Source of the DNA: Pseudoxanthomonas sangjuensis
GTDB taxonomy: Bacteria; Pseudomonadota; Gammaproteobacteria; Xanthomonadales; Xanthomonadaceae
Assembly (NCBI RefSeq): GCF_010211755.1
Contig: NZ_PDWR01000013.1
Location: 1-64,000, forward strand
DNA length: 64,000 nt
Direction of reading: 5' to 3'
Part shown: piece by piece, positions 47,362 through 62,521 of the stretch
Numbering within the stretch: position 1 is the first letter of the stretch
How the letters are laid out: every line of letters starts with the position of its first letter
The notes under the pieces: model-generated
What the model saw: the letters and a program-made list of their open reading frames with translations, nothing else
Database searches by the model: none
What the model was told of the DNA's origin: nothing
Position numbers and translations under genes: made by a program

Positions 47362-47748
47362 TCACGAAGACCGTCGCACCGGCGGCGGGGAGGCGCGGAT
47401 TCCCTCCAGCTTCTCGCGGAACCACGGCCCGGCGTCCTGCGCCTCGCGCCCCGGGCAACGCACCCGGTAGGCGCGCCCGCTCATGCTGCTCCTGCTGGCG
47501 GCGAGCTCGATGAATCGCTCCGCGCTGTCCACCAGGTCGCGCTTGAGCAGGTAGTCGTACTTGCGCTGCAGGTGCCTGCGCGCCTCGGCGGCGCGATACC
47601 AGCTGCCATTGCGCTGGAATTCGCAACCCGACGCCGACAGCGCATCCATCAGCCCCGCGATCTCGCGCTGCGCCAGCGGCGACGGGGCGGCGGCGATCAG
47701 CGGCGCCGCGACCAGCGCCACGAGCCAAGCGGCCCTCGCCCCCGCCAT
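47362..47748 (-). CDS. DUF5329 secreted protein
   Basis: The 128-residue exported protein has a signal peptide (about 1-22). SGCEFQRNGSWYRAAEARRHLQRKYDYLLKRDLV and ASRSSMSGRAYRVRCPG match DUF5329; two cysteines in this fold are conserved. The start ATG 47748 overlaps the phaC stop by 1 bp (TGATG), so translation is likely coupled to phaC. Function unknown; it is the gene after phaC in the same operon. Confidence 0.8.
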   Translation of the reverse strand: MAGARAAWLVALVAAPLIAAAPSPLAQREIAGLMDALSASGCEFQRNGSWYRAAEARRHLQRKYDYLLKRDLVDSAERFIELAASRSSMSGRAYRVRCPGREAQDAGPWFREKLEGIRASPPPVRRSS

Positions 47749-48824
47749 CAGCGCGCCCGTGCCGCAAGCCAGTCGTGGATCGCGCCCGGCACCTCGCGCT
47801 GGGCGCGGCCGGACACGTAGATGCCGATGTGCCCGCCCCTGAAGCTCAGTTCGCTGTAGTCGTCCGTGCCGACCAGCTTCTTCAGCGCGCGCGACGCGTC
47901 CGGCGGCACCAGGTGGTCCTGTTCGGCGTAGATGTTCAGCACCGGCATGTCGACGAAACCCAGGTCCACCGCTTCGCCGTCGATCTCGATGCCGCCGTTG
48001 ACGAAGCCGTTGCCCTGGTAGAACTGCTTGATGAACTGGCGGAACGCCTCGCCGGCCAGGTCCGGGGAATCGAAGATCCACTGTTCCATGCGCAGGAAGT
48101 CCTCGACCGCATGTTCGTCGTCGAGGATGTCGATCAGGCCCACGTACTTCTGCAGGTTCAGCCGGAACGGCTTCAGCATCAGGTAGCTGGCGTTCATCAG
48201 GTCGGCCGGCACGTTGCCGAGCGTGTCGACGAACAGGTCGACGTCGAGGTCGCGGGTCCAGCACGACAGCATGTTGTCGCCGGTGTGGAAATCGACCGGC
48301 GTGACCATCGTGACCAGGTTCTTCACCTTCTCCGGGTGCAACGACGAGTAGCACAGCGAGAACGCGCCGCCCTGGCAGATGCCGAGCAGGTTGATCGCGT
48401 CGAGGCCGGAGCTTTCGCGCAGGTGGTCGACCGCACCGTCGATGAAGCGGTTGATGTAGTCGCCCAGTTCGAGGAAGCGGTCGGAACGGTCCGGGTAGCC
48501 CCAGTCGATCAGGTACACGTCCTCGCCGCGCGCCAGCAGGTTGCGCACCAGCGAGCGGTCGGACTGCAGGTCGACCATGTACGGGCGGTTGACCAGCGCA
48601 TAGACGATCAGCAGCGGGATCTTCGCGGTCGGCTTCGACTCGCCGACGAAGCGGTACAGCACGACCTTGCCGTCGCGCCAGACTTCCTGCTTCGCGGTCG
48701 CGCCGTAGTGCACGTCGTGCCCGGCCACTTCCGGCAGGGTCTTCAGCCCGGCGGCGAACTTGCGCTGCAGGGCCAGCGCCTCCTGCGCCAGTTCGTCGGG
48801 GGTGATGTGCAGCGGGCCGTTCAC
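47748..48824 (-). CDS. phaC: Class III polyhydroxyalkanoate synthase, PhaC subunit
   Basis: The 358-residue catalytic subunit joins 3-hydroxybutyryl-CoA units into polyester. The lipase-like box is GICQGG with C150; D303 (EQDHLVPP) and H332 (GGHIGIYVSG) complete the triad, each one position beyond the A. vinosum residues C149, D302 and H331. Length and the next-door phaE gene mark the class III (PhaEC) type. The start GTG 48824 overlaps the phaE stop as GTGA, with a GGGAGG site before it. DUF5329 follows directly. Confidence 0.95.
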   Translation of the reverse strand: MNGPLHITPDELAQEALALQRKFAAGLKTLPEVAGHDVHYGATAKQEVWRDGKVVLYRFVGESKPTAKIPLLIVYALVNRPYMVDLQSDRSLVRNLLARGEDVYLIDWGYPDRSDRFLELGDYINRFIDGAVDHLRESSGLDAINLLGICQGGAFSLCYSSLHPEKVKNLVTMVTPVDFHTGDNMLSCWTRDLDVDLFVDTLGNVPADLMNASYLMLKPFRLNLQKYVGLIDILDDEHAVEDFLRMEQWIFDSPDLAGEAFRQFIKQFYQGNGFVNGGIEIDGEAVDLGFVDMPVLNIYAEQDHLVPPDASRALKKLVGTDDYSELSFRGGHIGIYVSGRAQREVPGAIHDWLAARAR

Positions 48825-50257
48825 TTGCGGCCTCCCTTGCCGCCCGACTTCGGCTTGCCGGACAGCGGCGGCTCGATCGAGGCCATGCCGCGCGCAACCC
48901 AGTCCTTCATCGAAACGACCCTGGCGCTGGTTTTCGCCGCGGGGGCCGGCTTCGAGGCGGCGGGCTTCGTCGCGGCGGCTTTCTTCACGCTGGCCGGCCT
49001 GGCCTTCTTCGGCGCGGCAAGGTGCTTTTTCGCGGCCGGAGCCGGTTCCTTTGCCGCGACCTTCGTTGCGGTTGCAGCCTTCTTCGGCACGGGCGCGGCG
49101 ACGGGTCCGGTCGCCTCGACCTTGCTCGCCACACTGGCGCGGTTTGCCACCGCCTTCGGTTTCGGGGCTTTCTTGTCCGGCTTGCGCTTGGCCTTGCGCA
49201 CGGGTTTCGCGGCAGTCTTCGGCTTCGCCTTCGCCGCCGCTTTCGCCACGGGCTTCGCGGCAACGGGTTCGGCCACGACCGGCGCCGGCTGCGCCTTCGC
49301 GGCGACCGGCTGGCGCGGTTCGGCCTGCGCGCGCGCGGCCTTGCGCAGCGCGCGCTCCAGTTCGGCGATCTTGCGGTGCGCCGAATCGACCTCGGTGCGG
49401 GTCGGCAGGCCGAACAGGTTGCAGAACTGCTCGGCTTCCTTCTGCACCGCCGCGCGCAGGCGCATCTGCGAATTGGCCAGCGCGCCGATGGCGTGGCGGA
49501 ATTCCGTCGACAGCGCCGCCTCGGCGTAGGCTTCCTCGGCCGCGTCGATCCACAGGTCGAACAGCGCGCGCGCGCTGCCGATCTGCTTGCCGGGCGCATC
49601 GTGTTCGTCGAGCTTGCCCTCGAATGCCTCGAACGCTTTCTCGCCGATTTGCAGCAGCAGCGCGTTGTATTCGGCATTGCGCTGCCGGTAGTCCTGCACT
49701 GCGTCGGCGAACGCCTGCCAGCGCTCCTGGTGCTCGCGCGCGGGGCCGAACGCCGGCAGGTGGGGCGTGTGTTCGTGCCCGTACAGCCGTTCCGCGGCGT
49801 CCAGCCAGGGCTTGATCTGTTCGGCCCAGCCGTCCAGGCCATTGCCGCCCCAGCCCTTCATCGCGGCGAGGATGTCGGCGAAGGGGTTGGCCGCGTCGGC
49901 AGTCGCGCCGATCGCCTCGCGCCAGGCCTTGCCGATGTCGGCGGCGCTGTTGTCGGTGCCGGCGAATCGCGCGGCAACCTGCTGCATCTGCCCGTACCAG
50001 TCGCTGGCCTGTTGCTGGAAACGCTGCAACACGTCGTCGAGCGGACCGCGCCGGCCGTTGCCGCCCACCAGTTGCGACCACCACAGGATCGCCCGGCTCC
50101 AGTCGCTGTTGGCCCAGTCCGGCGAAGGCGGGCTTCCCGCACCGCCGCGCATCGCCTGGCCCCAGGCGTTCCAGTACTGCCGCGCCAGCGATTCGACATC
50201 GGCGCCGCTGCCGAAACCGCCAAGACCGCCGAAACCACCTGCTCCCGTGCCGAACAT
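48821..50257 (-). CDS. phaE: Class III PHA synthase subunit PhaE with Lys/Ala/Pro-rich tail
   Basis: This 478-residue protein starts with a Gly-rich leader, then a PhaE-type region (about 25-300) with QQQASDWYGQMQQVAARF and the C-terminal helical KIAELERALRKA. PhaE is usually about 350-370 residues; here a tail of about 140 residues (about 305-450) is made almost only of Lys, Ala, Pro and Val repeats (AAKP, KPKT). It is similar in composition to histone H1-like proteins and phasin tails. A short hydrophilic end with MKDWVARGM follows. PhaE activates PhaC. The phaC GTG overlaps its stop. Confidence 0.9.
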   Translation of the reverse strand: MFGTGAGGFGGLGGFGSGADVESLARQYWNAWGQAMRGGAGSPPSPDWANSDWSRAILWWSQLVGGNGRRGPLDDVLQRFQQQASDWYGQMQQVAARFAGTDNSAADIGKAWREAIGATADAANPFADILAAMKGWGGNGLDGWAEQIKPWLDAAERLYGHEHTPHLPAFGPAREHQERWQAFADAVQDYRQRNAEYNALLLQIGEKAFEAFEGKLDEHDAPGKQIGSARALFDLWIDAAEEAYAEAALSTEFRHAIGALANSQMRLRAAVQKEAEQFCNLFGLPTRTEVDSAHRKIAELERALRKAARAQAEPRQPVAAKAQPAPVVAEPVAAKPVAKAAAKAKPKTAAKPVRKAKRKPDKKAPKPKAVANRASVASKVEATGPVAAPVPKKAATATKVAAKEPAPAAKKHLAAPKKARPASVKKAAATKPAASKPAPAAKTSARVVSMKDWVARGMASIEPPLSGKPKSGGKGGRK

Positions 50258-50334: not shown

Positions 50335-52176
50335 TCAAGGCATCGGCAGTTGCGCGGCGTCGACCGCTCCGGCGCCGCGCCCCCTGGCCTCGATCAGCGC
50401 GTCGGCCGGCAGGTCGCCCTGCCCGTCGAGATGCGCCGAAACGCGGTCCAGCGCGGCATAGACGTAGGGCAGCATCGGCGTGTAATGCGCGCCGTAGGCC
50501 GGCAACGCCAGGAAGGCGTCGAAATGCTCGCCGTTGCGCACGCGCCAGTAGCGCACGTCGCGGCCGGCGGCCTGCGCGGCGGCGACGTACGGCGCGCTGG
50601 TGAACGCGGGCGGCACCAGGCCGTCGTCGGTACCGTGCACGACCAGCACCGGCAGGCCGGCACGCGGCAGGCCCGCCCGGGTCGCGGCGACGCCTTCGCG
50701 CACGCGCTTCGCATCGTCGCCCTGCCCGTCCCACAACCCGCGCAGGCATTGCAGGCCCGGCAGGGTGAAGTCCGGCGGCGCGATCCCGGCATCGACGATG
50801 CCGACGCCGTTGCCCGGCGGGATGCCGGCGCTGTCGCTCCACCACGCGGCGCGCTCGGCGTCGGTCGCCGCACGTGCGCTGAAGTCCGGGTTCTGCGCCG
50901 AGAACGCATAGCCGCAAGGATGCTCGCCGACGCCGTAGCGGCCGTAGGCCGAGGCATAGGTCACCGCGACCGAGCGCCACAGGTCGAAACCGACGCTCAG
51001 CGTTCCGGCGGTCAGCGACTCGTCGGTCCAGCCGCTGGCGCGCAGCCTGTCGTAGGCCGACTTCGCCTGTGCGGCGACGTCGGCGCCCTCGACCAGGCCC
51101 GCCGCCTTCAGCGTGGCGCAACGCGCCTGCCACAGCGGCTCGACCTGCGCCCGCAGCGGCGGCTGCGGCAATGACCCGGCCGGCAGGTGCAGCAGCGCGC
51201 ACGGCATCAGCAGCGCGGCCTCGGTGGAAAAGTCGTACAGCGGGCGGCCGCCGTGGCCGTCGACGTAGACGTTCGGTTCGCCGGCGACGACCGCGTCGAG
51301 CCACTCGCCATCGCCTTCGGCCGCACGCAGCACTGCGCCGCCGCCGTTGGAAATGCCGACGGCGATGACCCGGGTATTGTCGAAAGTGAACGGCGCGTCG
51401 TTCGGGAAGGCCGCGGCCAGCGCGGACAGCGCGAACTCGGCCGCCTGTTTCACGTGCACGCCCCAGTCGGCCTCCGGGTTGTCCTTCGAGTGCGCGTGCT
51501 TGAACGCGATACCCCTGGCATCGGCCGCCGCATCGGGGACGAAGGCCAGCCCGCCGTCGTCGGCTCTGCCCAGGGTGCCGTCGAGCCGCTGCCCCTGCCG
51601 CGTGTCGAGGTCGAAATAGTCGGTGCCCGCGCCCTTGTCGGTGTAGGCGACCGCGCAACCCTTCGGCAGGCCCCAGGCGCCGGCCACCGCGATCGCGCCG
51701 TAGACGCCGCGCGAGCCCGACGCCGGTGCGACCAGCACGCAGCGCTTGTCCGTGTCGAACGCGTCCGGCACCTGCACCAGCACGCGATGCGGCTGCTTGG
51801 CGCCCGGCACCCTGGCGAAGGCGGCGTATTCGCGCCCGGGCACGCTGGCGGTGCTGCCATAGAGCTGGCCGTAGCCGCCGGCCGGCGACAGGTCGGCGAT
51901 CCCGCGCCAGTTACTCCAGATCGCGCGACGGCGCAGCTCGGCCGCGGTCGGATGCGCCGCGTCGGCGAAGGCCGGCGGCGCCATCGCGCGCAGGCCGTCG
52001 ATGCCGAGGCCCGCGGTCAGCAGGTCGTCGCTGCCGCGATGTTCGGTGACGCGCTGGGGCTGGAGCATCGAAGCCTTCTCCGCGGCATTTTCGTTTTTCG
52101 GGGAAGCCGTGCCGCAGGCCGACAGCAGGCAGGCCAGCACGACGCCAAGTGCGTATGGGGACGGATTATGGTTCAT
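50335..52176 (-). CDS. D-3-hydroxybutyrate oligomer hydrolase, lipoprotein form
   Basis: This 613-residue hydrolase of the 3HB-oligomer hydrolase family has a lipobox LLSAC (C21), so it is likely anchored in the envelope. GISNGGG holds the nucleophile S276; FDTDKRCVLVAPASGSRGVYG and HGTDDGLVPPAFTSAPYV are family blocks. It cleaves 3-hydroxybutyrate oligomers to monomers. It is 77 bp downstream of the phaE start on the same strand, in a PHA cluster. The family was described as both cytosolic and extracellular. The start ATG 52176 fits the signal sequence. Confidence 0.88.
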   Translation of the reverse strand: MNHNPSPYALGVVLACLLSACGTASPKNENAAEKASMLQPQRVTEHRGSDDLLTAGLGIDGLRAMAPPAFADAAHPTAAELRRRAIWSNWRGIADLSPAGGYGQLYGSTASVPGREYAAFARVPGAKQPHRVLVQVPDAFDTDKRCVLVAPASGSRGVYGAIAVAGAWGLPKGCAVAYTDKGAGTDYFDLDTRQGQRLDGTLGRADDGGLAFVPDAAADARGIAFKHAHSKDNPEADWGVHVKQAAEFALSALAAAFPNDAPFTFDNTRVIAVGISNGGGAVLRAAEGDGEWLDAVVAGEPNVYVDGHGGRPLYDFSTEAALLMPCALLHLPAGSLPQPPLRAQVEPLWQARCATLKAAGLVEGADVAAQAKSAYDRLRASGWTDESLTAGTLSVGFDLWRSVAVTYASAYGRYGVGEHPCGYAFSAQNPDFSARAATDAERAAWWSDSAGIPPGNGVGIVDAGIAPPDFTLPGLQCLRGLWDGQGDDAKRVREGVAATRAGLPRAGLPVLVVHGTDDGLVPPAFTSAPYVAAAQAAGRDVRYWRVRNGEHFDAFLALPAYGAHYTPMLPYVYAALDRVSAHLDGQGDLPADALIEARGRGAGAVDAAQLPMP

Positions 52177-52212
52177 GCAGGCAAACTACCTTCGCTGGCA
52201 ACCGGCGGCATC

Positions 52213-52224
52213 GTACTTTGGTAC
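52213..52224. promoter_or_regulatory. GTAC-N4-GTAC palindrome (possible activator site)
   Basis: GTAC TTTG GTAC lies between the divergent oligomer hydrolase and response regulator genes. Its centre is about 42 bp from the hydrolase ATG. On the plus strand a GATAAT -10 box is at 52254-52259, which puts the centre about 47 bp upstream of the predicted start of that transcript. A second site of the same form is at 61015-61026. Confidence 0.55.
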
Positions 52225-52265
52225 CACGCCGGCAATGGCGATTCCTGTTAGAAGATAATTGCGGA

Positions 52266-52372
52266 CCGTTCGTCCTGAGCGTAAGGGCATGGCCCCGGAG
52301 TCGAAGGATGCGCGAGGTCCTTCGACTTCGGCCCTGTGGGCCTACGCCCAGGACGAACGGCTCAATTTTTTT
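52266..52372. repeat. Long imperfect inverted repeat ending in a T-run, in the response regulator leader
   Basis: Outer arms CCGTTCGTCCTG (52266-52277) and CAGGACGAACGG (52349-52360) pair, and inner arms GTCGAAGGA (52300-52308) and TCCTTCGAC (52318-52326) pair. A run of seven T follows at 52366-52372. This resembles the GTTCGTCCTGAGC...GTCGAAGGA repeats of many proteobacteria. It sits between a GATAAT -10 box and the response regulator ATG at 52397, so it could also act as a terminator-type attenuator. Confidence 0.7.
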
Positions 52373-52396
52373 ACCCGGTTCCGGCCCAAACCCCGC

Positions 52397-53062
52397 ATGC
52401 CCAAGCTCCTGATCGCCGACGACCACCCGCTGTTCCGCGCCGCGCTGCGCAGTGCGGCGGCCGATGCGGTCGCGCAACTCGACGTGCTGGAAACCGCCTC
52501 GCTGGACGGCGTGCTCGCAGCGCTGGACGCCCATCCCGACATCGACCTGGTGCTGCTGGACCTGCACATGCCCGGCAACCACGGCCTGGCCGGGCTGGCG
52601 GCGATCCGCGCGCAGTTCCCCGCCGTCGCGGTGGTCGTGGTCTCGGCCAACGACGATCCGCGCGTGGTCCGCCGCGCGCTGGACCACGGCGCCGCCGGCT
52701 ACCTGCCGAAGAGTTCCGGGCTGGAGGAACTGCGCGACGCGATCCGCAGCGTGCTCGCCTGCGAGCAGTGGCTGCCGGCCTCGCTGCGCGCCTCGGTGGC
52801 GCGCGCGCAGTCGTCGGCGCACGACACCGAACTGGCCGCGCGCCTGGCCAGCCTGTCGCCGCAGCAGTTCCGCGTGCTGAACTACGTCGCCCAGGGCCTG
52901 CTGAACAAGCAGATCGCCGACCGGCTGGACGTGCAGGAACGCACGGTCAAGGCGCATCTGTCGGCGATCTTCGACCGCCTCGGCGTGCGCAACCGCACCC
53001 AGGCCGGCGTGGTGCTGCGCGAGCTCGAGCTGAGCGATCCGGCGAAGCAGATCGAAGGCTGA
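52397..53062 (+). CDS. LuxR-family response regulator, CrbR/ErdR-like
   Basis: This 221-residue two-component regulator has an N-terminal receiver with D8, D9 and phospho-acceptor D55 (VLLDLHMPG), S in VVSAND and K in YLPKSS. The C-terminal LuxR HTH is LSPQQFRVLNYVAQGLLNKQIADRLDVQERTVKAHLSAIFDRLGVRNRTQ. Length and sequence fit CrbR/ErdR, the partner of SSS-family kinases that control acetate use. The ATG at 52397 lacks a good ribosome site; a longer upstream reading frame covers the repeat and is not credible. A GNAT gene follows by 4 bp. The kinase is 2 kb away. Confidence 0.88.
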   Translation: MPKLLIADDHPLFRAALRSAAADAVAQLDVLETASLDGVLAALDAHPDIDLVLLDLHMPGNHGLAGLAAIRAQFPAVAVVVVSANDDPRVVRRALDHGAAGYLPKSSGLEELRDAIRSVLACEQWLPASLRASVARAQSSAHDTELAARLASLSPQQFRVLNYVAQGLLNKQIADRLDVQERTVKAHLSAIFDRLGVRNRTQAGVVLRELELSDPAKQIEG

Positions 53063-53066
53063 AACG

Positions 53067-53501
53067 ATGCCGGCATTCGACATCCGTCCCGCCCTGCCCG
53101 CCGACGCGGCCGAACTCGCCCGCCTGTCCGGACAGCTCGGCTATCCGGTGGACGCGGGCGAGATGTCGCGCCGGCTCGCCCTCGTACTGGCCGATCCCGC
53201 CCGCGCGGTGCTCGTCGCCGACGCGGGCGGGAACCTGCTCGGCTGGCTGGGCGTGGAGCAGCGGACCACGCTGGAAGGCGGTACGCAGGCCGAGATCGTC
53301 GGTTTCGTCGTCGATGCGCGGGTGCGCCGTTCCGGCGTCGGCCAACGCCTGCTGCAGGCCGCCGAGGCGTGGACCCGAGAACGCGGCTTCGCCGAACTGC
53401 GGGTCCGCTCCAACATCGCCCGCGCCGAATCGCATCCGTTCTACGAGAAACACGGCTTCGTGCGCAAGAAAACCCAGCACGTCTATGCGAAGCGGTTCTA
53501 A
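53067..53501 (+). CDS. GNAT acetyltransferase
   Basis: The 144-residue GNAT domain has FDIRPALPADAAELARLSGQLGYPV, EIVGFVVDARVRRSGVGQRLLQAAEAWTRERGF (acetyl-CoA loop) and FYEKHGFVRKKTQHVYAKRF at the end. It is 4 bp downstream of the response regulator and shares a transcript with it. Acceptor unknown; acetyl-CoA use suits an acetate-linked locus. Confidence 0.88.
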   Translation: MPAFDIRPALPADAAELARLSGQLGYPVDAGEMSRRLALVLADPARAVLVADAGGNLLGWLGVEQRTTLEGGTQAEIVGFVVDARVRRSGVGQRLLQAAEAWTRERGFAELRVRSNIARAESHPFYEKHGFVRKKTQHVYAKRF

Positions 53502-53547
53502 ATCCTTGCGGCTCTAAATCCTTCTCCCCGCGGAAGGAGGGCTTCCG

Positions 53548-54036
53548 TCAGATCCGCGAATAACGCCACGACACCATCTTGCCGTCGCGGTACGGCATGA
53601 CGCCATGGAACGCGCGCGGATCGTCGTCGAACACCAGCGGCACGAAGTGGCGGTCGCCGTCCCACAGCGGCAGGTCGAGGATGCCGGCGACATCGACCCA
53701 CTCCAGCGTGCCTTCGGGGTTGCTCGCGTACGGCTCGCCGCTGAACTTCGTCACCACGAACACGAAACCCAGCCAGTCCTCGCCGTGCTTGCCGAAGCCG
53801 GGCCAGCTGATCGTGCCGCGCAGCGACAGTTCGTCGCATTCGATCCCGGCTTCCTCGCGGATTTCGCGGCGCATGCACGCGACCACGTCCTCGTCCGCCT
53901 CGATCTTGCCGCCGAGGCCGTTGTACTTGCCCAGGTGCAGGTCGCCGGGCCGCGCGTTGCGGTGGATCATCAGCACTTGCGAGCGGTCGGGCGACAGCAC
54001 GTAGCCCAGGGTGGCGACGATGGGGGTGTAAGGCAT
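53548..54036 (-). CDS. NUDIX hydrolase (MutT-like)
   Basis: The 162-residue NUDIX pyrophosphatase has the full box, GKIEADEDVVACMRREIREEAGI, which fits GX5EX7REUXEEXGU. It is MutT-like and may hydrolyse 8-oxo-dGTP or another nucleotide. ATG 54036 is chosen. It is convergent with the GNAT gene (46 bp gap) and 29 bp downstream of the AlkX/YcaQ-type gene on the same strand, which suggests a DNA-protection pair. Confidence 0.9.
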   Translation of the reverse strand: MPYTPIVATLGYVLSPDRSQVLMIHRNARPGDLHLGKYNGLGGKIEADEDVVACMRREIREEAGIECDELSLRGTISWPGFGKHGEDWLGFVFVVTKFSGEPYASNPEGTLEWVDVAGILDLPLWDGDRHFVPLVFDDDPRAFHGVMPYRDGKMVSWRYSRI

Positions 54037-54065
54037 GGGGAGGTCGATCGTGGCGATGGGCGATT

Positions 54066-55172
54066 CTAACCTTCGGCCAGGCCGAGGAAGCCGCGCATCC
54101 GCTGCAGCTCGTCCTCCAGCGCGGCCTTGAACGCACTGCCGCGCGGCGCCGGCCCGGCGAAGCCGAGTGCGTGCTTCAGGCGGCCGTTCTCGACGCGCAG
54201 GTTGGCCCAGCCGTGCATCCGCTCGCCCCACAGCAGCGGCAGCGCGTAATGGCCCATGGTGCGTTTCGGCGCGGGCACGTAGGCCTCGAACCTGTAGGTC
54301 CAGCCCCACAGCAGCGCGAAGCGCCGCCGGTCCCAGACCACCGGGTCGAACGGCGCGAGCAGGCGCAGGGCTTCGTCGGGCGCGTGGCGCGTCGAAAGCG
54401 GATTCTCGTCGGCCGGCCAGAACCAGGTGTGGCCTTCGACCACGGCGTGGGCGTAGCGCACCTTCGCCCGCCTGCAGGCCTGTCGCGCTTCGGCGCGCAA
54501 TTGCGGCGCGCCATAGCCCAGCAGCGTGGTCAGGTAGCCCAGGCTGGCCGACGGCAACGGCGCGTACAACGCGACCACCCGGTCCAGCAGCGCCTCCGCG
54601 CGCGCCTGCCGCGCGGCCGGGCCGTCGTCGACCGGCGGGTGTTCGACGGCCTCGTAGACCCGCGTGCCGCCGTCGCGCCGCTTGACCCGCAGCAGGCCGC
54701 GGTAATGCAGGCCATCCAGCAACTGGGTGCTGACGTTCAGCTCGCCGCCCCAGTAACCGGGCTGGCGACCGTGGTGGCTGAAGGCTTCGAGCACGTCGCG
54801 CGGATGGGTCGGGCCATGCCGGCGGACGAATTCGAGCAGTTCGGCCGCGTGCCCGCGCGTCTTCGCGTCCCACTCGCGCCGGGCCTTGCGCGGGTGCAGC
54901 AGCGGTAGGGTTTCGCGTGGCAGGAAGCCGTAGTTGACGAAGCAGTCTTCCTCGATGGCCAGCCGCGCATAGCGGCGTTCCAGTTCGCCCGCGCGGTAAT
55001 CGAGGACGCGGTGGCGCAGGATCAGGTCCTGCGCCCGCGCCGGCGCGCGCATCGGGTCGGCCTGGACGAAACCCAGCCGTTTGATCGCGGCGCCGAGGCT
55101 GGTCGGCTTGAACAGGCTGCGCGCGATGGCATAGCGCCGCAACTGGCCGAGGTCGGGGGTTTTCTTGCTCAA
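54066..55172 (-). CDS. AlkX/YcaQ-type DNA glycosylase (HTH_42, DUF1006)
   Basis: The 368-residue winged-helix protein is of the family that unhooks DNA interstrand crosslinks. VQADPMRAPARAQDLIL near the N-terminus gives the QxD catalytic motif (Q37, D39) of YcaQ/AlkX; AlkZ has QxQ instead. FVNYGFLPRETLPLLHP and ERMHGWANLRVENGRL are further family blocks. It acts on nitrogen-mustard type and other bulky adducts. It precedes the NUDIX gene on the minus strand and follows the kinase gene by 49 bp. Confidence 0.88.
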   Translation of the reverse strand: MSKKTPDLGQLRRYAIARSLFKPTSLGAAIKRLGFVQADPMRAPARAQDLILRHRVLDYRAGELERRYARLAIEEDCFVNYGFLPRETLPLLHPRKARREWDAKTRGHAAELLEFVRRHGPTHPRDVLEAFSHHGRQPGYWGGELNVSTQLLDGLHYRGLLRVKRRDGGTRVYEAVEHPPVDDGPAARQARAEALLDRVVALYAPLPSASLGYLTTLLGYGAPQLRAEARQACRRAKVRYAHAVVEGHTWFWPADENPLSTRHAPDEALRLLAPFDPVVWDRRRFALLWGWTYRFEAYVPAPKRTMGHYALPLLWGERMHGWANLRVENGRLKHALGFAGPAPRGSAFKAALEDELQRMRGFLGLAEG

Positions 55173-55221
55173 GACGAAGGAAGGGAGCGGATCGAAGGCG
55201 GATCTTATTGCAGCGGCGGCG

Positions 55222-58200
55222 CTACGCGACGGCCACGCGCGCCGACAGCAGGCGGTCCAGCACCGACTTCAGCGCCAGCGGCCGCAGCGGCTTGGCCAGC
55301 GGCGGCAGGTCGGCCTCGCGCACCGCGGCGCGCACCGCCTCGCCCCGGTCGGCGCTGAGGATCAGGCAAGGTTTCGCGTCGAAGCATTCCGAAAGCCATC
55401 GCCACAAATCCACGCCGGTAGCGTCGTCGTCGAGGTGGTAGTCGAACAGCCAGACGTCGGCCTCCGCCTCGGCGATCGCGCCCGCGGCGGCGGCCGCATC
55501 GGCCGCGACGGAAACCCGGCAGCCCCAGCCTTCGAGCAGTTGTCGCAAGGCGTCGAGCGCAAGCGGGTCGTTGTCCACCGCCAGCACATGGCGACCCGCG
55601 AGGCCCGGGCGCGCCGCGCCGGAAGCGGCCTTGGCCAGCGGCACCGCGACCAGCGGCAGTTCGACCGCGAACACCGAGCCGCGGCCGACCCGGCTGTTCA
55701 CCGACAGCGGCGCATGCAGCAACCGGGCGATGCGGTCGGCGATCGACAGGCCGAGCCCGAGCCCCTGCCCGCTCGCGCCTTCGCCGCGGCGGAATTCCTC
55801 GAAGATCGCGTGCTGCTCGCCCGCGCCGATGCCCGGGCCGGTGTCGTGCACTTCGACGCGCAGTTTCCCGTTCGCGCGGCGCACGCCGAACACGATGCCG
55901 CCGCGCTGCGTGTAGCGCACCGCGTTGGCGAGGAAGTTCTGCAGGATCCGCCGCAGCAGCTGCGGGTCGCTGCGCGTCCACGCGCGCGTCGGCACGTGGG
56001 CGAAGCACAGGCCGCGCTCGCCGGCCAGCGCACGGAATTCCGACGCCAGCGGCTCCAGCACTTCGGCCAGCGGGAAATCGCGCGGCTCGGGCACCAGCCC
56101 GCCGGCCTCCAGCCGCGACATGTCGAGCAGGCCGTTGAGCAGGTCGGTGGTGGAACCGAGCGCGCCGCGCAGTTGCTCTACCGTTTCCCGCCGCTCCGGC
56201 AGCTGCTGCGCCAGCGAGTCGGTGAACAGGTGCGCGGCGTGCAGCGGCTGCAGCAGGTCGTGGCCGATCGCGGTCAGGAAGCGGCTCTTCGCGTCGTTGG
56301 CGTGCTCGGCCTCGCGCTTGGCGCTTTCCAGCAGCGCGGTGCGCTCGGCCACGCGCTGCTCCAGCGTCTCGTTGGCCCGCTTGAGCTCGCGCTCGGCCTG
56401 GCGCGATGCGGTGACGTCGGTGTAGGTGGCGACGAAACCGCCGCCGGGCATCGGGTTGCCGCGGATCTCGACGATGCTGCCGTCGGGGAACACGCGTTCG
56501 GTCAGGTGCGCGGTGCCGGCGCGCATGTACGCCAGCCGGCGCTGCAACGCATCCTCGCCGGAACCGCGGTGCGGCATGCGCTGCAGCGCCCAGCGGGTCA
56601 GGTCCTCGATCGGCCGGCCGACCTGCAGCAGCTCCGGCGGGAAGCCGAACATCTCCGCGTAGCGCGGGTTCCACGCGACCAGCCGCAGCTCGCGGTCGAC
56701 CACGCTGAAGCCCTGGCTCATGTTGTTCAACGCCGCTTCCAGCACCTGCTGGTTGAAGCGCAGGTCCTGCGAAGCCTCGCCGACGATCGCGGCGACCGTG
56801 TCGAGTTCACGGGTCTCGTTGCGCGCGGCGTTGAGCAGCAGGCGCGCCGAGGCCGAACCGAGCACCGCCGACAGTTCGCGCTCCAGCCGCGCCTCGATCG
56901 GCGCCGGCACCGGCCCTTCCGCCGGCGCGCCGTCGAGCAACTGTTCGACGCGCTCGCGCGGCAGGAAACGCAAACCCGCGTCGCGCAGCGCGGAACGGTC
57001 GAGGCGGCGGCCGGAAAAGCGCGGCGTGTCGCGCCGCCAGATCGCCGCGAGCAGCGTGGCCAGCAGGCCGACGAACAGGCTGGCACCGACCGCACGGCCC
57101 AGCGGGCTCCAGCCGGTCAGCCCGAACAACCCCTGCGGCGACAGCCACGACAGTCCGAGCGGCCCCTCGCCCAGCCATGCCGGCGCGCGCCCGGATGCCG
57201 CGGCCAGCATCGGCGCCAGCATCACCCAGGCCCACACCGCGAAACCGGCGACGACGCCGGCGATCGCCGCGCGCGGCGGCGTCTGCGGCCGCCACACCGC
57301 GAACCCCAGCGCCGGCGCCAGCGTCGCCAGCGCCGAGAAGCTCACCGCGCCGACGTCGGCCAGCGCGTCGCTGCCGGCGATCAGGCGGCTGTACGCCCAG
57401 GCCAGCAGCATGATCGCGAGGATGCCGGTGCGGCGCAGCAGCAACAGGCCGCCGCGATGGTCGCCGGCCGAGGTGCCCGACCACGCGCCGCGCAGCAGGC
57501 CCGGCGCGAACCAGTGGTTGCCGATCATCAGGCTCAGGGTCAGCGTGCTGACCACGACCATGCCGGTCGCCGCGCTCAAGCCGCCGAGGAAGGCGAACAG
57601 CGCCACGCCTTCGTGCCCCTGCGAACCATTCCCGGCATACAGCGGCAGCGCCAGCGCGTACATGTCCGACGGCACCCGCGAACCGAGCAGCGCCAGTCCG
57701 GCGCGCGCCAGCGGCAGCGTCGGCAATGCGATCAGCACCAGGTACAGCGGGAACAGCCAGCGCGCCGAACGCACATCGCGCTCGTCGCGGCATTCGACCA
57801 CGCCGACGTGGAACTGGTGCGGCAGGATGAACATCGCCAGCGCACCGAGCAGCACCAGCGGCGCGAAGCCGCCGGCGACCTGCGGTGGCGGCGCCGCCGG
57901 CGCCGGCAAATCCTTCAGCCCGAACCAGACGAAGGCGCCCAATGCCAGCATCGCCATCAGCTTGAACAGCGATTCGAAGGCCATCGCCAGCACCAGGCCG
58001 CGGTTGTGCTCTGCGGCGCTGGCGCGGCGGGTGCCGAACAGCATCGCGAACGCGGCCATCGCCAGCGCCACGTACAGCGCACTGTCGCGCCACGCCGGCC
58101 CCACGCCGCCGGCGGCGGAATCGGCGGTGAGCGTGGCGAAGCTCATCGCCACCGCCTTCAGCTGCAGCGCGATGTACGGGATCAGGCCAAGCGCGGCGAC

Positions 58201-58560
58201 CGCGGTCACCGTGGCCGCCAGCCATGCGTCCTTGCCCAGGCGGGTGGCGATCAGGTCGGCCAGCGAGGTCGCGTTGGTTTCGCGCGCCAGGCGCACCAGC
58301 CGGACCATGAAGGCCACCGCCAGCGCGTAGAACAGGATCGCGCCGAGGAAGGTCGGCGGCAGCGGCCAGCCGTAGCGCGCGGCCTGGGTGACCGTGCCGT
58401 AGAAGGTCCACGAGGTGCAGTGCACCGCCAGCGACAGCGCATAGACGTGGCGCCAGCGCCGCGCCAGCACCGCCGGGTGGCGCTCGGCGTACAGCGCGGT
58501 GCCGAACATCAGCGCCAGCCACGCCAGCGCGGCCGCGGCCACGAGCCAAAGGCTCAGCAT
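55222..58560 (-). CDS. Hybrid histidine kinase with SSS-symporter sensor, CrbS/MxtR-like
   Basis: This 1112-residue protein has a sodium/solute symporter-like N-terminal part (about 1-500, 12-13 helices). A PAS domain follows (about 630-740, with DRELRLVAWNPRYAEMFGFPPELL), then a HisKA (AIGHDLLQPLHAAHLF, phospho-His in GHD), HATPase (with NAVRYT, DTGPGIGAGEQHAIFEEF) and a C-terminal receiver (VLAVDNDPLALDALRQLL, WLFDYHLDDD). This order is that of CrbS/MxtR and CbrA. GGGAGGGGG precedes ATG 58560. The likely partner regulator is at 52397; the two are separated by three genes. Confidence 0.9.
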   Translation of the reverse strand: MLSLWLVAAAALAWLALMFGTALYAERHPAVLARRWRHVYALSLAVHCTSWTFYGTVTQAARYGWPLPPTFLGAILFYALAVAFMVRLVRLARETNATSLADLIATRLGKDAWLAATVTAVAALGLIPYIALQLKAVAMSFATLTADSAAGGVGPAWRDSALYVALAMAAFAMLFGTRRASAAEHNRGLVLAMAFESLFKLMAMLALGAFVWFGLKDLPAPAAPPPQVAGGFAPLVLLGALAMFILPHQFHVGVVECRDERDVRSARWLFPLYLVLIALPTLPLARAGLALLGSRVPSDMYALALPLYAGNGSQGHEGVALFAFLGGLSAATGMVVVSTLTLSLMIGNHWFAPGLLRGAWSGTSAGDHRGGLLLLRRTGILAIMLLAWAYSRLIAGSDALADVGAVSFSALATLAPALGFAVWRPQTPPRAAIAGVVAGFAVWAWVMLAPMLAAASGRAPAWLGEGPLGLSWLSPQGLFGLTGWSPLGRAVGASLFVGLLATLLAAIWRRDTPRFSGRRLDRSALRDAGLRFLPRERVEQLLDGAPAEGPVPAPIEARLERELSAVLGSASARLLLNAARNETRELDTVAAIVGEASQDLRFNQQVLEAALNNMSQGFSVVDRELRLVAWNPRYAEMFGFPPELLQVGRPIEDLTRWALQRMPHRGSGEDALQRRLAYMRAGTAHLTERVFPDGSIVEIRGNPMPGGGFVATYTDVTASRQAERELKRANETLEQRVAERTALLESAKREAEHANDAKSRFLTAIGHDLLQPLHAAHLFTDSLAQQLPERRETVEQLRGALGSTTDLLNGLLDMSRLEAGGLVPEPRDFPLAEVLEPLASEFRALAGERGLCFAHVPTRAWTRSDPQLLRRILQNFLANAVRYTQRGGIVFGVRRANGKLRVEVHDTGPGIGAGEQHAIFEEFRRGEGASGQGLGLGLSIADRIARLLHAPLSVNSRVGRGSVFAVELPLVAVPLAKAASGAARPGLAGRHVLAVDNDPLALDALRQLLEGWGCRVSVAADAAAAAGAIAEAEADVWLFDYHLDDDATGVDLWRWLSECFDAKPCLILSADRGEAVRAAVREADLPPLAKPLRPLALKSVLDRLLSARVAVA

Positions 58561-58628
58561 CGCCCCCTCCCCGCCGATTCAACGCTCATTGCGCAACCGC
58601 CCTTCCCATGCCGCCGAGCATAACGAAA

Positions 58629-58654
58629 CGGCGGCGGACTTTCGCCCGCCGCCG
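58629..58654 (-). terminator. Terminator of the TonB receptor gene
   Basis: On the minus strand CGGCGGCGG and CCGCCGCCG form the stem around an 8-base loop, followed by TTTCGTTA. It is 26 bp downstream of the receptor stop and 69 bp before the kinase start. Confidence 0.7.
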
Positions 58655-58679
58655 CTTGCGCCGTCTCCGGACCGCCGAC

Positions 58680-60929
58680 TCAGAAGTCGTAGCGCGCGGT
58701 CAGGCTGAACTGGCGCGGCGGGCCGTAGAAGCCGGTCAGGATGCCCAGCGACGCGATGTTGTAGCCGGTGGTGCGGTATTCCTCGTCGGTCAGGTTGGTG
58801 CCCTGCAGCGAGAACGACCAGGCTTCGTTCGCGCGCCAGATCACGCCGGCGTTGAGCAGGCCGTAGCCGTCCTGCTTGATGTCCTCGGACAGGTCGGTGG
58901 TCGGGTAGACCTCGCTCTGGTAGGCGTAGCCGAGGCGTGCCGACAGGTTGCCGCCGTTGGCCAGGTCGGTGCGCCATTCCACGTTCAGCGCACCGGAGAA
59001 CTCGGGCGCGTTGGTGAACTTCTGGCTGTCGGCGATGTTGACGCCGCCGGTCATGAACTCGTCGTACTTGGCGTCCAGCCAGGCCAGGTTGCCGCTGATC
59101 AGCCAGTGCTCGCTGGGCAGCCACTGGTACTCGACTTCCGCGCCGTTGACCGTACCCTTGCCGGCGTTGGTGAAGTCGCCGAAGAACGCGTCGTCGACGC
59201 CGTCGCCGTCGCTGTCGTAGTTGCTGAACACCGACAGCTGGATGTCCTCGTACTTGTTGTGGAAGGCGGACAGGTTCAGGAACAGCCGCTGGTCGAGCAG
59301 GCTCATCTTGCTGCCGACCTCGAAGCTGTCGACCTTTTCGTCCTGGAACGGTTCGGCGGAAAGCGGGAACTGGACCTGCTGGGCGCGGATGTTGTAGCCG
59401 CCCGACTTGAAGCCGCGCGAGGCCAGGCCGTAGACCATGATGTCCGGCGTGATCTGGTAGTCCAGCGAAACCTTCGGCGACAGGTTGCTGAAGCTGGTGC
59501 TCTTGTCGAAGTCGGCCGCGATCGGGGTCGGGTTGGTCGCCGTGCACGCCGCCGCCAGCTGGGTGAAGGTGGCGTCGGTGTAGCAGCGGTTGAGCACGCG
59601 CGCGTGCTTGTCCTCGTCGGTCCAGCGCGCGCCGACGTCGAGCTTCAGCACGTCGGTCAGGTCGAAGGTCCAGTCGGTGTAGACGGCGATGCTCTTGGTG
59701 TTGACCACGCCCTGGGTGTCGCCGAACGACAGGTTGATGAAGTTGTTCAGCACCTGGCCGCCGGCGTCGCCGTCGAACTGGTACAGGCCCATCACGCCGC
59801 GTGCGCGGCCGCCGCCGTCGTAATTGACCTGCAGTTCGTTGCTGACCTGCTCGTCGCTGTAGAAGGCGTGCACGTCGACGATGCGGTTGGGCAGCATGTC
59901 GAAGTCGATGTAGGTATCGGTGTCGGATTCGCGCTTGGCGAGCACGTACTTGGCCGCCCAGTCGTCGTTGATGCGCCAGTTGGCCGTGGCCGAGGCGCCC
60001 TTCATCGTGGTGTCGTTGATGTTCTTCATGCCGCTGCGGATGTCGTAGCGGTCGTCCAGCGGCTGCTGGCCGAAGCCCAGGCCCGGGTCGACGACGTAGT
60101 CCAGCGGATTCGCCGCCAGCATCTTGCCGCCGCGCACGCCGGACTGGTCGTCCATCCAGTCGAAGGCGAACTGCACGTCGAAATTGTCGCTGACGTAGGC
60201 GCCCAACTGCGCGCGCGCCGCCAGGATCTCCTTGTCGCTGACTTCCTGCCCGGTGTACAGGTTCTCGCCGAAGCCGTCGCGGTTCATGCTGGCCACCGCG
60301 ATGCGGCCGCGCAGCGCCTCGCTGCCGCCGATCGAGCCGCCGATCGCGGCCTTCGCGTCCAGCTGGTTGTAGTTGCCGACGGTGACCGAGGCGAAGCCGT
60401 CGGTTTCCTTGGGCAGGCCGCGCGAGATGTACTTGATCGCGCCGCCGATGGTGTTCTTGCCGTACAGCGTGCCCTGCGGCCCGCGCAGCACCTCGATGCG
60501 CTCGACGTCGAACACGTCGAGCAGTGCGCCCTGCGGGCGGGCGATGTAGACGTCGTCCAGGTAGATGCCCACGCCCGGGTCCACGCCCCACAGCGGGTCG
60601 GCCTGGCCGATGCCGCGGATGTACGCGGTGACGGTGCTGGTGGAGCCGCGCGCGGCGTAAATGGTCAGGTTGGGCACCTGCGCATCGAGATCTCCGATGT
60701 CGCGCACGTTCAGCTTCTCCAGCGTCTCCGGCGTGAACGCGGTGACCGCCACCGGCACTTCCTGCAGCGTCTCCTCGCGCTTGCGCGCGGTGACCGTGAT
60801 GCTGTCCAGGGTCTTGGCCTCCTGCGTCGCCGGCGCGGTTTCCGCGCCCGCGCCGGATTCCTGCGCCCATGCGGCCGCCGGTGCGATCAACAAGCCGGCG
60901 ATGGCCAGGCTCAAGTGGTTGCGCTTCAT
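58680..60929 (-). CDS. TonB-dependent receptor
   Basis: The 749-residue outer-membrane receptor has a signal peptide (about 1-23). The plug carries the TonB-box-like DSITVTARKREE and the typical VPVAVTAF, IPNLTIY-like and RIEVLRGPQGTLYGKNTIGGAIKYISR. The barrel ends with a terminal F. The ATG at 60929 follows GAGGAGGGGAG. It is divergent from the GntP permease gene. Substrate unknown; the locus suggests an organic acid or a 3HB oligomer, but that is inference. Confidence 0.93.
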   Translation of the reverse strand: MKRNHLSLAIAGLLIAPAAAWAQESGAGAETAPATQEAKTLDSITVTARKREETLQEVPVAVTAFTPETLEKLNVRDIGDLDAQVPNLTIYAARGSTSTVTAYIRGIGQADPLWGVDPGVGIYLDDVYIARPQGALLDVFDVERIEVLRGPQGTLYGKNTIGGAIKYISRGLPKETDGFASVTVGNYNQLDAKAAIGGSIGGSEALRGRIAVASMNRDGFGENLYTGQEVSDKEILAARAQLGAYVSDNFDVQFAFDWMDDQSGVRGGKMLAANPLDYVVDPGLGFGQQPLDDRYDIRSGMKNINDTTMKGASATANWRINDDWAAKYVLAKRESDTDTYIDFDMLPNRIVDVHAFYSDEQVSNELQVNYDGGGRARGVMGLYQFDGDAGGQVLNNFINLSFGDTQGVVNTKSIAVYTDWTFDLTDVLKLDVGARWTDEDKHARVLNRCYTDATFTQLAAACTATNPTPIAADFDKSTSFSNLSPKVSLDYQITPDIMVYGLASRGFKSGGYNIRAQQVQFPLSAEPFQDEKVDSFEVGSKMSLLDQRLFLNLSAFHNKYEDIQLSVFSNYDSDGDGVDDAFFGDFTNAGKGTVNGAEVEYQWLPSEHWLISGNLAWLDAKYDEFMTGGVNIADSQKFTNAPEFSGALNVEWRTDLANGGNLSARLGYAYQSEVYPTTDLSEDIKQDGYGLLNAGVIWRANEAWSFSLQGTNLTDEEYRTTGYNIASLGILTGFYGPPRQFSLTARYDF

Positions 60930-60983
60930 CTCCCCTCCTCCAAGGTGCGACAAGGCGGCGACGCTCGCCGCCAACCGACGGCA

Positions 60984-61064
60984 AGACTAGGCAGCGGCCG
61001 GCCCCGCAACACTTGTACCTTCGTACAGGGGACGCCCCCGCATGCGCCGCGGATACTCCGCAAC
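60984..61064. promoter_or_regulatory. Divergent promoters flanking a GTAC-N4-GTAC palindrome
   Basis: The palindrome GTAC CTTC GTAC is at 61015-61026, within a TGTAC-N4-GTACA context. TAGTCT on the minus strand (60989-60984) and GATACT on the plus strand (61052-61057) are -10-like boxes placed symmetrically, each 31.5 bp from the centre. Both predicted transcript starts lie about 43 bp from the centre, as expected for an activator at the -42 position. Neither promoter has a good -35 element. This is the second copy of the site at 52213-52224. Confidence 0.55.
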
Positions 61065-61117: not shown

Positions 61118-62521
61118 ATGTCGATCCTGATCGTACTGGCCGCGCTGTGTTTCCTGATGTTCGTGGCCTACCGCGGCTACAGCGTGATCCTGTTCGCGCC
61201 GGTCGCGGCGCTGGGCGCGGTGCTGCTGACCGACCCGTCGCTGGTCGCACCGATGTTCACCGGCCTGTTCATGGACAAGCTGGTCGGCTTCCTGAAGCTG
61301 AATTTCCCGGTGTTCCTGCTCGGCGCGATCTTCGGCAAGGTGATCGAGCTGTCGGGCTTCTCGAAATCCATCGTGGCCGCGACGATCAAGGCGGTCGGCG
61401 CCAGGCGCGCGATCCTGTCGATCGTGCTGGTCTGCGCGCTGCTGACCTACGGCGGCGTGTCGCTGTTCGTGGTGGTGTTCGCGGTGTACCCGTTCGCCGC
61501 CGAGCTGTTCCGGCAGAGCGACATCCCGAAGCGGCTGATCCCGGGTACGATCGCCCTCGGCGCGTTCACCTTCACCATGGACGCGCTGCCGGGCACGCCG
61601 CAGATCCAGAACATCATCCCGACCACCTTCTTCGGCACCGACACCTGGGCCGCGCCGCTGCTGGGCACGCTGGGCGGCGCGTTCGTACTGGCGGTGGGCC
61701 TGCTCTACCTGGAATGGCGCCGGCGCAGCGCGGCGAAGGCCGGCGAAGGCTATGGCGACCCGGCGACGCTGCTCAACGAACCGGCGCCGTTCGCCGGCGG
61801 CAAGCTGGCCAATCCGCTGGTCGCTATCCTGCCGCTGCTGCTGGTCGGGGTCAGCAACAAGCTGTTCACGCTGTGGATCCCGGCGTTCTACGGCGGCAGC
61901 CACAGCTTCGTGCCCGCGGTGATCGGCAAGGCCGCGCCGGTGGTGCAGGAGACGTCGAAGATCGCCGCGATCTGGGCGGTCGAGGGCGCGCTGCTGGTCG
62001 GCATCCTGTGCGTGCTGGCGTTCGCGTGGAAGCCAGTGGTGTCCAGCTTCGCCGAAGGCAGCAAGTCGGCGGTCGGCGGCGCGCTGCTGGCCGGCATGAA
62101 CACCGCCTCCGAATACGGCTTCGGCGCGGTCATCGCCGCCCTGCCCGGCTTCCTGGTCGTGGCCAACGCGCTTTCCGCGATCCCCAATCCGCTGGTGAAC
62201 GAAGCGATCACGGTGACCGCCCTGGCCGGCATCACCGGCTCGGCATCGGGCGGCATGAGCATCGCGCTGGCGGCGATGGCCGAAACCTTCATCGCCAACG
62301 CCAACGCCGCCGGCATCCCGATGGAAGTGCTGCACCGGGTCGCGGCGATGGCTTCCGGCGGCATGGACACCCTGCCGCACAACGGCGCGGTGATCACCCT
62401 GCTCGCGGTGACCGGCCTGAGCCACCGGCAGAGCTACAAGGACATCTTCGCGGTGACCGCGATCAAGACCCTGGCGGTGTTCGCGGTGATCGCCGCGTAC
62501 TACCTGACCGGCTGGGTGTAA
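61118..62521 (+). CDS. GntP-family permease
   Basis: This 467-residue inner-membrane permease has about 12-14 helices and the GntP-type blocks MDALPGTPQIQNIIPTTFF, LAGMNTASEYGFGAVIAALPGF, ITGSASGGMSIALAAMAE and MASGGMDTLPHNGAVITLL. GntP permeases carry gluconate, 3-hydroxybutyrate, citrate or related acids. A permease of this family is the 3-hydroxybutyrate transporter in some pseudomonads, which suits a PHB region. GAGGGGA lies 9 bases before ATG 61118. It is divergent from the TonB receptor. Confidence 0.9.
   Translation: MSILIVLAALCFLMFVAYRGYSVILFAPVAALGAVLLTDPSLVAPMFTGLFMDKLVGFLKLNFPVFLLGAIFGKVIELSGFSKSIVAATIKAVGARRAILSIVLVCALLTYGGVSLFVVVFAVYPFAAELFRQSDIPKRLIPGTIALGAFTFTMDALPGTPQIQNIIPTTFFGTDTWAAPLLGTLGGAFVLAVGLLYLEWRRRSAAKAGEGYGDPATLLNEPAPFAGGKLANPLVAILPLLLVGVSNKLFTLWIPAFYGGSHSFVPAVIGKAAPVVQETSKIAAIWAVEGALLVGILCVLAFAWKPVVSSFAEGSKSAVGGALLAGMNTASEYGFGAVIAALPGFLVVANALSAIPNPLVNEAITVTALAGITGSASGGMSIALAAMAETFIANANAAGIPMEVLHRVAAMASGGMDTLPHNGAVITLLAVTGLSHRQSYKDIFAVTAIKTLAVFAVIAAYYLTGWV

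Follow-up and report, generated by a model that had tools for sequence, protein, structure and literature searches.

Two GTAC-N4-GTAC palindromes are probable operators of a CrbSR-like paralogue linked to 3-hydroxybutyrate in Pseudoxanthomonas sangjuensis

A 64,000-nucleotide stretch of the Pseudoxanthomonas sangjuensis genome (contig NZ_PDWR01000013.1, positions 1 to 64,000; hereafter the window) carries the palindrome GTAC-N4-GTAC in two divergent promoter regions near genes for the use of 3-hydroxybutyrate (3HB), raising the question of which regulator reads these sites and for which genes. The answer reached here is that the regulator is probably the LuxR-type response regulator encoded at 52397-53062, with both palindromes as its operators and with the putatively SLC5-type hybrid histidine kinase encoded at 55222-58560 as its partner, in a 3HB-linked system paralogous to the acetate system CrbSR. 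Site 1, GTACTTTGGTAC, lies at 52213-52224, between the regulator gene and the gene for a 3HB-oligomer hydrolase (3HBOH), and site 2, GTACCTTCGTAC, lies at 61015-61026, between the genes for a TonB-dependent receptor and a GntP-family permease. Both are where the original prediction had placed them, and they are the only two copies of GTAC-N4-GTAC in the window, compared to a mean of 0.08 after shuffling. The whole assembly (3.29 Mb in 76 contigs) contains nine copies, versus 25 for the reversed control pattern. Judged by eye from lists of open reading frames (ORFs), six of the nine are inside plausible coding frames and three are outside, namely site 1, site 2, and one copy just 5' of a MerR-like frame; ORF overlap alone was no criterion, as spurious frames cover site 1 and site 2 too. 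The bare palindrome was found in 31 of 31 genomes at 4 to 38 copies per genome, and its presence by itself therefore says little.

The surroundings of site 1 are more informative. To follow them through relatives, the nearest of which are Pseudoxanthomonas, 80 related kinase loci were fetched, 65 of them with 3HBOH, and the exact palindrome stands directly before 3HBOH in 61 of these 65. The window 3HBOH (50335-52176, minus strand) has a lipoprotein-like N-terminus and passed PF10605 with an E value of 1.5e-140 (470 bits, gathering cut-off 27), and a loose lipobox pattern is present in 66 of 81 3HBOH protein starts, that of the window included. Column conservation was taken from 82 sequences, including the window, aligned on the exact site 1, which reads GTACCAAAGTAC on the 3HBOH strand. 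On the 3HBOH side, the site is followed by a near-invariant GATG flank (52209-52212, minus strand; G 100%, A 99%, T 100%, G 99%), and the central A-A is conserved at 95% and 100%, while conservation is weaker for a TG preceding the left arm, for the base that adjoins the right arm on its preceding side, and for a G ahead of the -10. A TANNNT box starts 30 bp from the site centre in 70 of the 82 sequences and at 31 bp in 8 more, the predicted -10 of the window, TAGTTT (52183-52188, minus strand), being at 30 bp. The ATG of 3HBOH is 42 bp from the centre in 53 sequences, as it is in the window, and 43 bp away in another 8. Since this -10 ends 6 bases ahead of the ATG, transcription would be expected to start at the A of the ATG, predicting a leaderless 3HBOH mRNA with the site centred near -42. 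The conserved promoter at site 1 faces 3HBOH, a promoter that the original prediction had overlooked.

Site 2 shows the same kind of geometry in both directions. Toward the TonB-dependent receptor gene (58680-60929, minus strand; PF00593, PF07715), the -10-like box is TAGTCT (60984-60989, minus strand), and toward the GntP-family permease gene (61118-62521, plus strand) it is GATACT (61052-61057, plus strand), each starting 31 bp from the centre, in agreement with the symmetry originally described. The window and 10 exact orthologues of site 2 all carry a TAG-type box toward TonB and GATACT toward GntP at an offset of 31 or 32 bp. The activated-type promoter geometry that had been proposed, with a -10 and no -35, is supported. 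Conservation of site 2, put at only 10 of 71 TonB/GntP intergenic regions by exact matching, was revised once one mismatch was allowed, as a form with one arm GTCC accounts for 54 more; 7 have neither, and site 2 is thus more variable than site 1. The permease had no Pfam or NCBIfam match and its predicted structure, with a mean predicted local distance difference test score (pLDDT) of 46.5, was too poor to use, leaving its name to rest on annotated relatives. Among plasmid records, its best 15 relatives show 70-77% identity, and the 8 that are annotated are all named 'GntP family permease'. In all three of the regions opened around such relatives (76.7, 71.7, and 71.7% identical; Azospirillum, Klebsiella, and Cupriavidus), a 3HB dehydrogenase gene is adjacent or three genes off, making it likely that the permease is a 3HB importer.

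A scan of 149 family genomes with the extended motif GTACNWWNGTACGATG resulted in 83 hits in 78 genomes, compared to 2 for the reversed control, with 78 of the 83 correctly oriented and no more than 400 bp ahead of 3HBOH, 4 between TonB and GntP genes, and 1 within a long unrelated frame. On the matter of chance frequency raised by the original prediction, the bare palindrome is common and the extended motif is concentrated at the predicted promoters. A regulator of the window type, here called type B, was found at the E-value limit in 77 of the 78 genomes with the extended motif, and in the last one the regulator is cut by a contig end. With E values of up to 1e-62 for the type-B regulator and up to 1e-30 for 3HBOH counted as presence, 100 of the 149 genomes have both, 4 have the regulator only, 7 have 3HBOH only, and 38 have neither. 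Two of the 7 genomes with 3HBOH only do have a regulator, G070, where it is cut by a contig end, and G039, which was rejected as a regulator-less case because its regulator falls just under the limit. In G057, G089, G102, and G148, which have 3HBOH and no detected type-B regulator, the site is absent at 0 or 1 mismatch in 4 of 4, and G089, read by eye, retains a decayed site with altered arms and an intact GATG flank.

3HBOH was found in 107 of the 149 genomes, and the upstream DNA of 33 of these genes, chosen as divergent, regulator-less, or odd, was fetched; the genes of close relatives were covered by the 65 loci, and G037, the seventh genome with 3HBOH only, was left out because its gene is partial. 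Among 94 regulator-bearing 3HBOH loci, G039 included, 81 have an exact site, 8 a site with one mismatch, and 5 a site with two. A background of random windows gave 47 exact and 163 one-mismatch sites in 3960, an upper limit only, as this background contains real sites. In G100 and G152, which have the regulator only, the site is found before an acyl-CoA synthetase-like gene. In two genomes without 3HBOH, where the helix of the regulator's relative differs, the site (GTACCTAGGTAC; L215:5928-5947 and L216:7198-7209) precedes an AMP-dependent acyl-CoA synthetase-like gene.

The proteins that would act on these sites were then compared with the acetate system. The window response regulator (52397-53062, plus strand) is a CrbR/ErdR paralogue with a receiver domain (PF00072, 7e-22) and a LuxR-type helix-turn-helix domain (GerE, PF00196, 1.6e-17), and the window kinase (55222-58560, minus strand) is a CrbS-like hybrid histidine kinase with PAS, HisKA, HATPase, and receiver domains behind a putative SLC5-like transporter domain. 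No Pfam domain was found in the first 597 residues of the kinase at E values of up to 1, and over the same range and limit their only PDB match was chain 10ed_A, 'histidine kinase', which phmmer aligned to residues 10-457 with an E value of 5.2e-44. Judging by PMC13022988, this chain appears to be CbrA, and it is through this identification that the SLC5 domain is called. Elsewhere in the genome there is a second CrbR gene (G000:C21:16123-16743), directly after acs, whose product is 50% identical to the window regulator, and there is a second kinase (G000:C76), 45-46% identical to the window kinase. The best NCBIfam match of the window regulator was NF041830 ErdR with 217.6 bits, and the acs-linked CrbR likewise remained under the cut-off of 390 with 240.2 bits. 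Their recognition helices are distinct, QERTVKAH in the window type versus SEATIKAH in the acs type. In a tree of 79 rows, the acs type and a third type formed one group (99/99) that left the type-B rows outside; the tree is compatible with a single origin of type B but does not demonstrate it.

The operators differ as well. The genome's own acs promoter carries GAC-GAAG-GTC, GAC-NWWN-GTC is found upstream of 15 of 15 acs genes from the genus that score above the family cut-off, and GAC-N4-GTC is found no more than 350 bp upstream in 20 of 30 acs-family loci, whereas GTAC-NWWN-GTAC was found within 350 bp upstream in none of the 30. At acs, where the original prediction had proposed to look for the palindrome, the site is GAC-N4-GTC, and in the comparison with the published CrbR motif it is this acs form that matches the ACTU site, the GTAC-N4-GTAC of the window being different. 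As far as can be read from sequence, the genome holds two CrbSR-like systems, of which the window pair, with its own operator and a predicted local 3HB regulon, is a paralogue and not the acetate CrbSR. The predicted CrbSR-like regulon for 3HB stands with respect to its shared site, CrbSR-like pair, activated-type geometry, and 3HB theme, but not as the acetate CrbSR itself, given the separate acs-linked CrbR. The genes that would be served do cohere around 3HB, as seen from 3HBOH, the 3HB dehydrogenase genes beside the GntP relatives, and a bdhA-like gene in related loci.

Other CrbR-like variants were seen along the way. The third type, with helix AENTVK[IV]H, is represented by L161, L162, L164, L166, L170, and L175, and in several genomes a nearby kinase matches the window kinase only from PAS to receiver. 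At L143 and L147, more distant acs-family genes have an ACTU-like GACCAAGGTC some 70 bp ahead of the match, which suggests that the acetate system has additional targets.

One rival explanation, implied by the -47 geometry of the original prediction, is that the regulator gene is also, or even mainly, under the control of site 1, an autoregulation that we consider rather unlikely. The box on which it was based, GATAAT (52254-52259, plus strand), is indeed present on the regulator side, 35 bp from the site 1 centre and giving about -47, and among the 42 loci with a directly adjacent regulator a far-side TANNNT stands at 30/31 bp in 14 and at 41/42 bp in 11. The remaining 17, however, have neither spacing, and a conserved promoter at this position was not borne out. 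In other loci a gene intervenes between regulator and 3HBOH. Its identity was read in only 5 of the loci in the set of 65 that have such a gene, and in 5 of 5 it is a 3HB dehydrogenase-type short-chain dehydrogenase (bdhA-like), that of L017, the one protein scanned, passing TIGR01963 with 352.9 bits; in 15 of the 33 further 3HBOH loci a bdhA relative, 37-77% identical, occupies the same place. Where there is a gene in between, site 1 remains with that gene and 3HBOH, with TANNNT at 30/31 bp on the far side in 33 of 37, and in G051 and G096, where the regulator is distant or on another contig, the site still precedes 3HBOH. In these loci the site goes with 3HBOH, so that what is conserved is not the promoter on the regulator side.

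It is considerably less probable that the canonical acs-linked CrbR reads the sites, leaving the window pair redundant or in control of something else. The two operators do have a common AC-NWWN-GT core, and the predicted ACTU site of PFLU5314 has TACCAAAGT in common with site 1, but the same-genus acs genes described above carry only the GAC-NWWN-GTC form, and in G057, G089, and G148 an acs-type (SEATIKAH) CrbR is present, no type-B regulator was detected, and the site is absent. Less probable still is a MerR-type operator dyad, or the site of some other regulator. MerR operators share a dyad of the GTAC-N4-GTAC type, and the third non-coding copy in this genome (G000:C1:20269-20280; L001) lies just 5' of a MerR-like frame, with a cation-efflux-like frame nearby, both identified by eye; that copy has the appearance of a MerR operator. 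At the sites considered here, however, the dyad centre is 30 bp upstream of the start of the -10 and not inside a -35/-10 spacer as for MerR, and 82 of the 83 extended-motif hits are at 3HBOH or TonB/GntP promoters, nearly always in genomes with the LuxR-type regulator. That the palindromes are a chance or non-regulatory repeat is hardly credible, for although the motif is short and most of its copies in this genome are in coding frames, the spacing is kept fixed across the family and the extended motif far exceeds its reversed control.

On the preferred reading, in which the window pair controls both sites, we infer the following sequence of events. The kinase would be activated, most likely by 3HB or a close product (acetoacetate or similar), and would phosphorylate the regulator, which would then occupy GTAC-NWWN-GTAC some 42 bp ahead of the transcription start and recruit RNA polymerase at class-II-like promoters that have a -10 and lack a -35. 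At site 1, this would activate the leaderless 3HBOH mRNA and, in relatives with bdhA at that position, bdhA divergently as well; at site 2, it would activate the divergent genes for the TonB receptor and for the GntP permease. The resulting scavenging route would lead from uptake of 3HB oligomers through the TonB receptor to hydrolysis by the lipoprotein, import by the GntP permease, and conversion by BdhA. More tentatively, and with somewhat less than even confidence, we suggest that a duplicated acetate transceptor was rewired, with the transporter-like domain sensing 3HB itself and the change of half-site from GAC to GTAC insulating 3HB-oligomer scavenging from the acetate system.

Several observations weigh against this reading. 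The ligand is its weakest step, with 3HB deduced solely from neighbouring and target genes. The genome's own bdhA homologue (L249, G000:C18) has no exact site upstream, although bdhA was among the genes where the original prediction had proposed to look; a two-mismatch candidate with a GATG flank, GGACTTTGGAAC / GGACTTTGGAACGATG, lies about 100 bp upstream, was not found in six relatives, and is only a lead. Site 2 is exact in only 10 of the 71 regions, with the GTCC arm in 54, and all 7 regions without site 2 keep a type-B regulator, in the locus itself at L043, L048, L059, and L076 and elsewhere in the genome for L070, L087, and L088. At two mismatches, L048, L059, and L076 have GTCC-N4-GTCC, and L070 and L088 have nothing. 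A swapped regulator as the cause of site loss in the latter two was dropped, since the type-B regulator was found elsewhere in both. Sites with two mismatches are all that 5 of the 94 regulator-bearing 3HBOH loci have, and the DNA retrieved for the regulator-only genomes G158 and G123 (L217, L218) contains no exact site. As for the four genomes with no detected regulator, completeness is 76% for G148 and the 3HBOH match of G102 is weak. The genomes are also related and the loci mostly syntenic (regulator, kinase, 3HBOH, TonB/GntP), so that the counts are not independent. Outside the family, no exact site was present in the DNA fetched for 4 type-B-like regulator loci (L157-L160) and 4 kinase loci (L187-L190), and the operator link is therefore established within the family only. 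As an aside on regulator placement, in L070, L080, and L088 the type-B kinase adjoins an unrelated response regulator (30% identical), and the type-B regulator occupies another place in the genome, accompanied by a bdhA-like gene, 3HBOH, and an exact site.

The genes next to 3HBOH belong to polyhydroxyalkanoate (PHA) synthesis. PhaE, a PHA synthase subunit, is encoded at 48821-50257 (minus strand; PF09712), and a PhaC-like PHA synthase reading frame extends over 47748-48890 (minus strand), coordinates that give the frame and not a confirmed 5' end, with a match to PF00561 and one to PF07167 under its cut-off.

If the proposed system is real, it would join the small number of transporter-kinase switches characterised so far and would provide a candidate sensor for 3HB, the building block of bacterial bioplastic, or for its oligomers. 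Two paralogous regulators with distinct operators in one cell would allow a direct test of how DNA specificity evolves, and a TonB receptor and a lipoprotein-like hydrolase are predicted to be under regulation in the use of bioplastic fragments. Among the matches listed in a literature search, titles and abstract openings described no 3HB-linked CrbSR paralogue.

Of the known systems, CrbS/CrbR (MxtR/ErdR) is like the window pair in its kinase, where a transporter-like domain (putative in the window kinase) is followed by PAS, histidine kinase, and receiver, in its LuxR-type regulator, in its activation-type promoters, and in an inverted repeat with an AC-N4-GT core centred near -42 to -44. 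According to PMC5715377, the ACTU sites listed for P. fluorescens are mostly TAC/GAC-N4-GTC and the site at acs spans -52 to -36; a table in that paper includes five Xanthomonas rows. The window pair differs from CrbS/CrbR in being a separate paralogue beside a retained acs-linked CrbR, in having the operator GTAC-N4-GTAC in place of GAC/TAC-N4-GTC, and in having 3HBOH, the TonB receptor, and the GntP permease as targets in place of acs/actP. The RpuS/RpuR pyruvate system of Sinorhizobium fredii is of the SLC5/STAC type and, as proposed for the window pair, serves a single carbon source together with the transporter for it, but it has other substrate genes and, according to PMC9100948, a direct-repeat operator at mctP. 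The CbrA transceptor of Pseudomonas also has an SLC5-type domain fused to a histidine kinase, a feature that the window kinase would share through its match to 10ed_A. The partner of CbrA is the sigma54-type regulator CbrB, in contrast to the LuxR-type regulator of the window pair.

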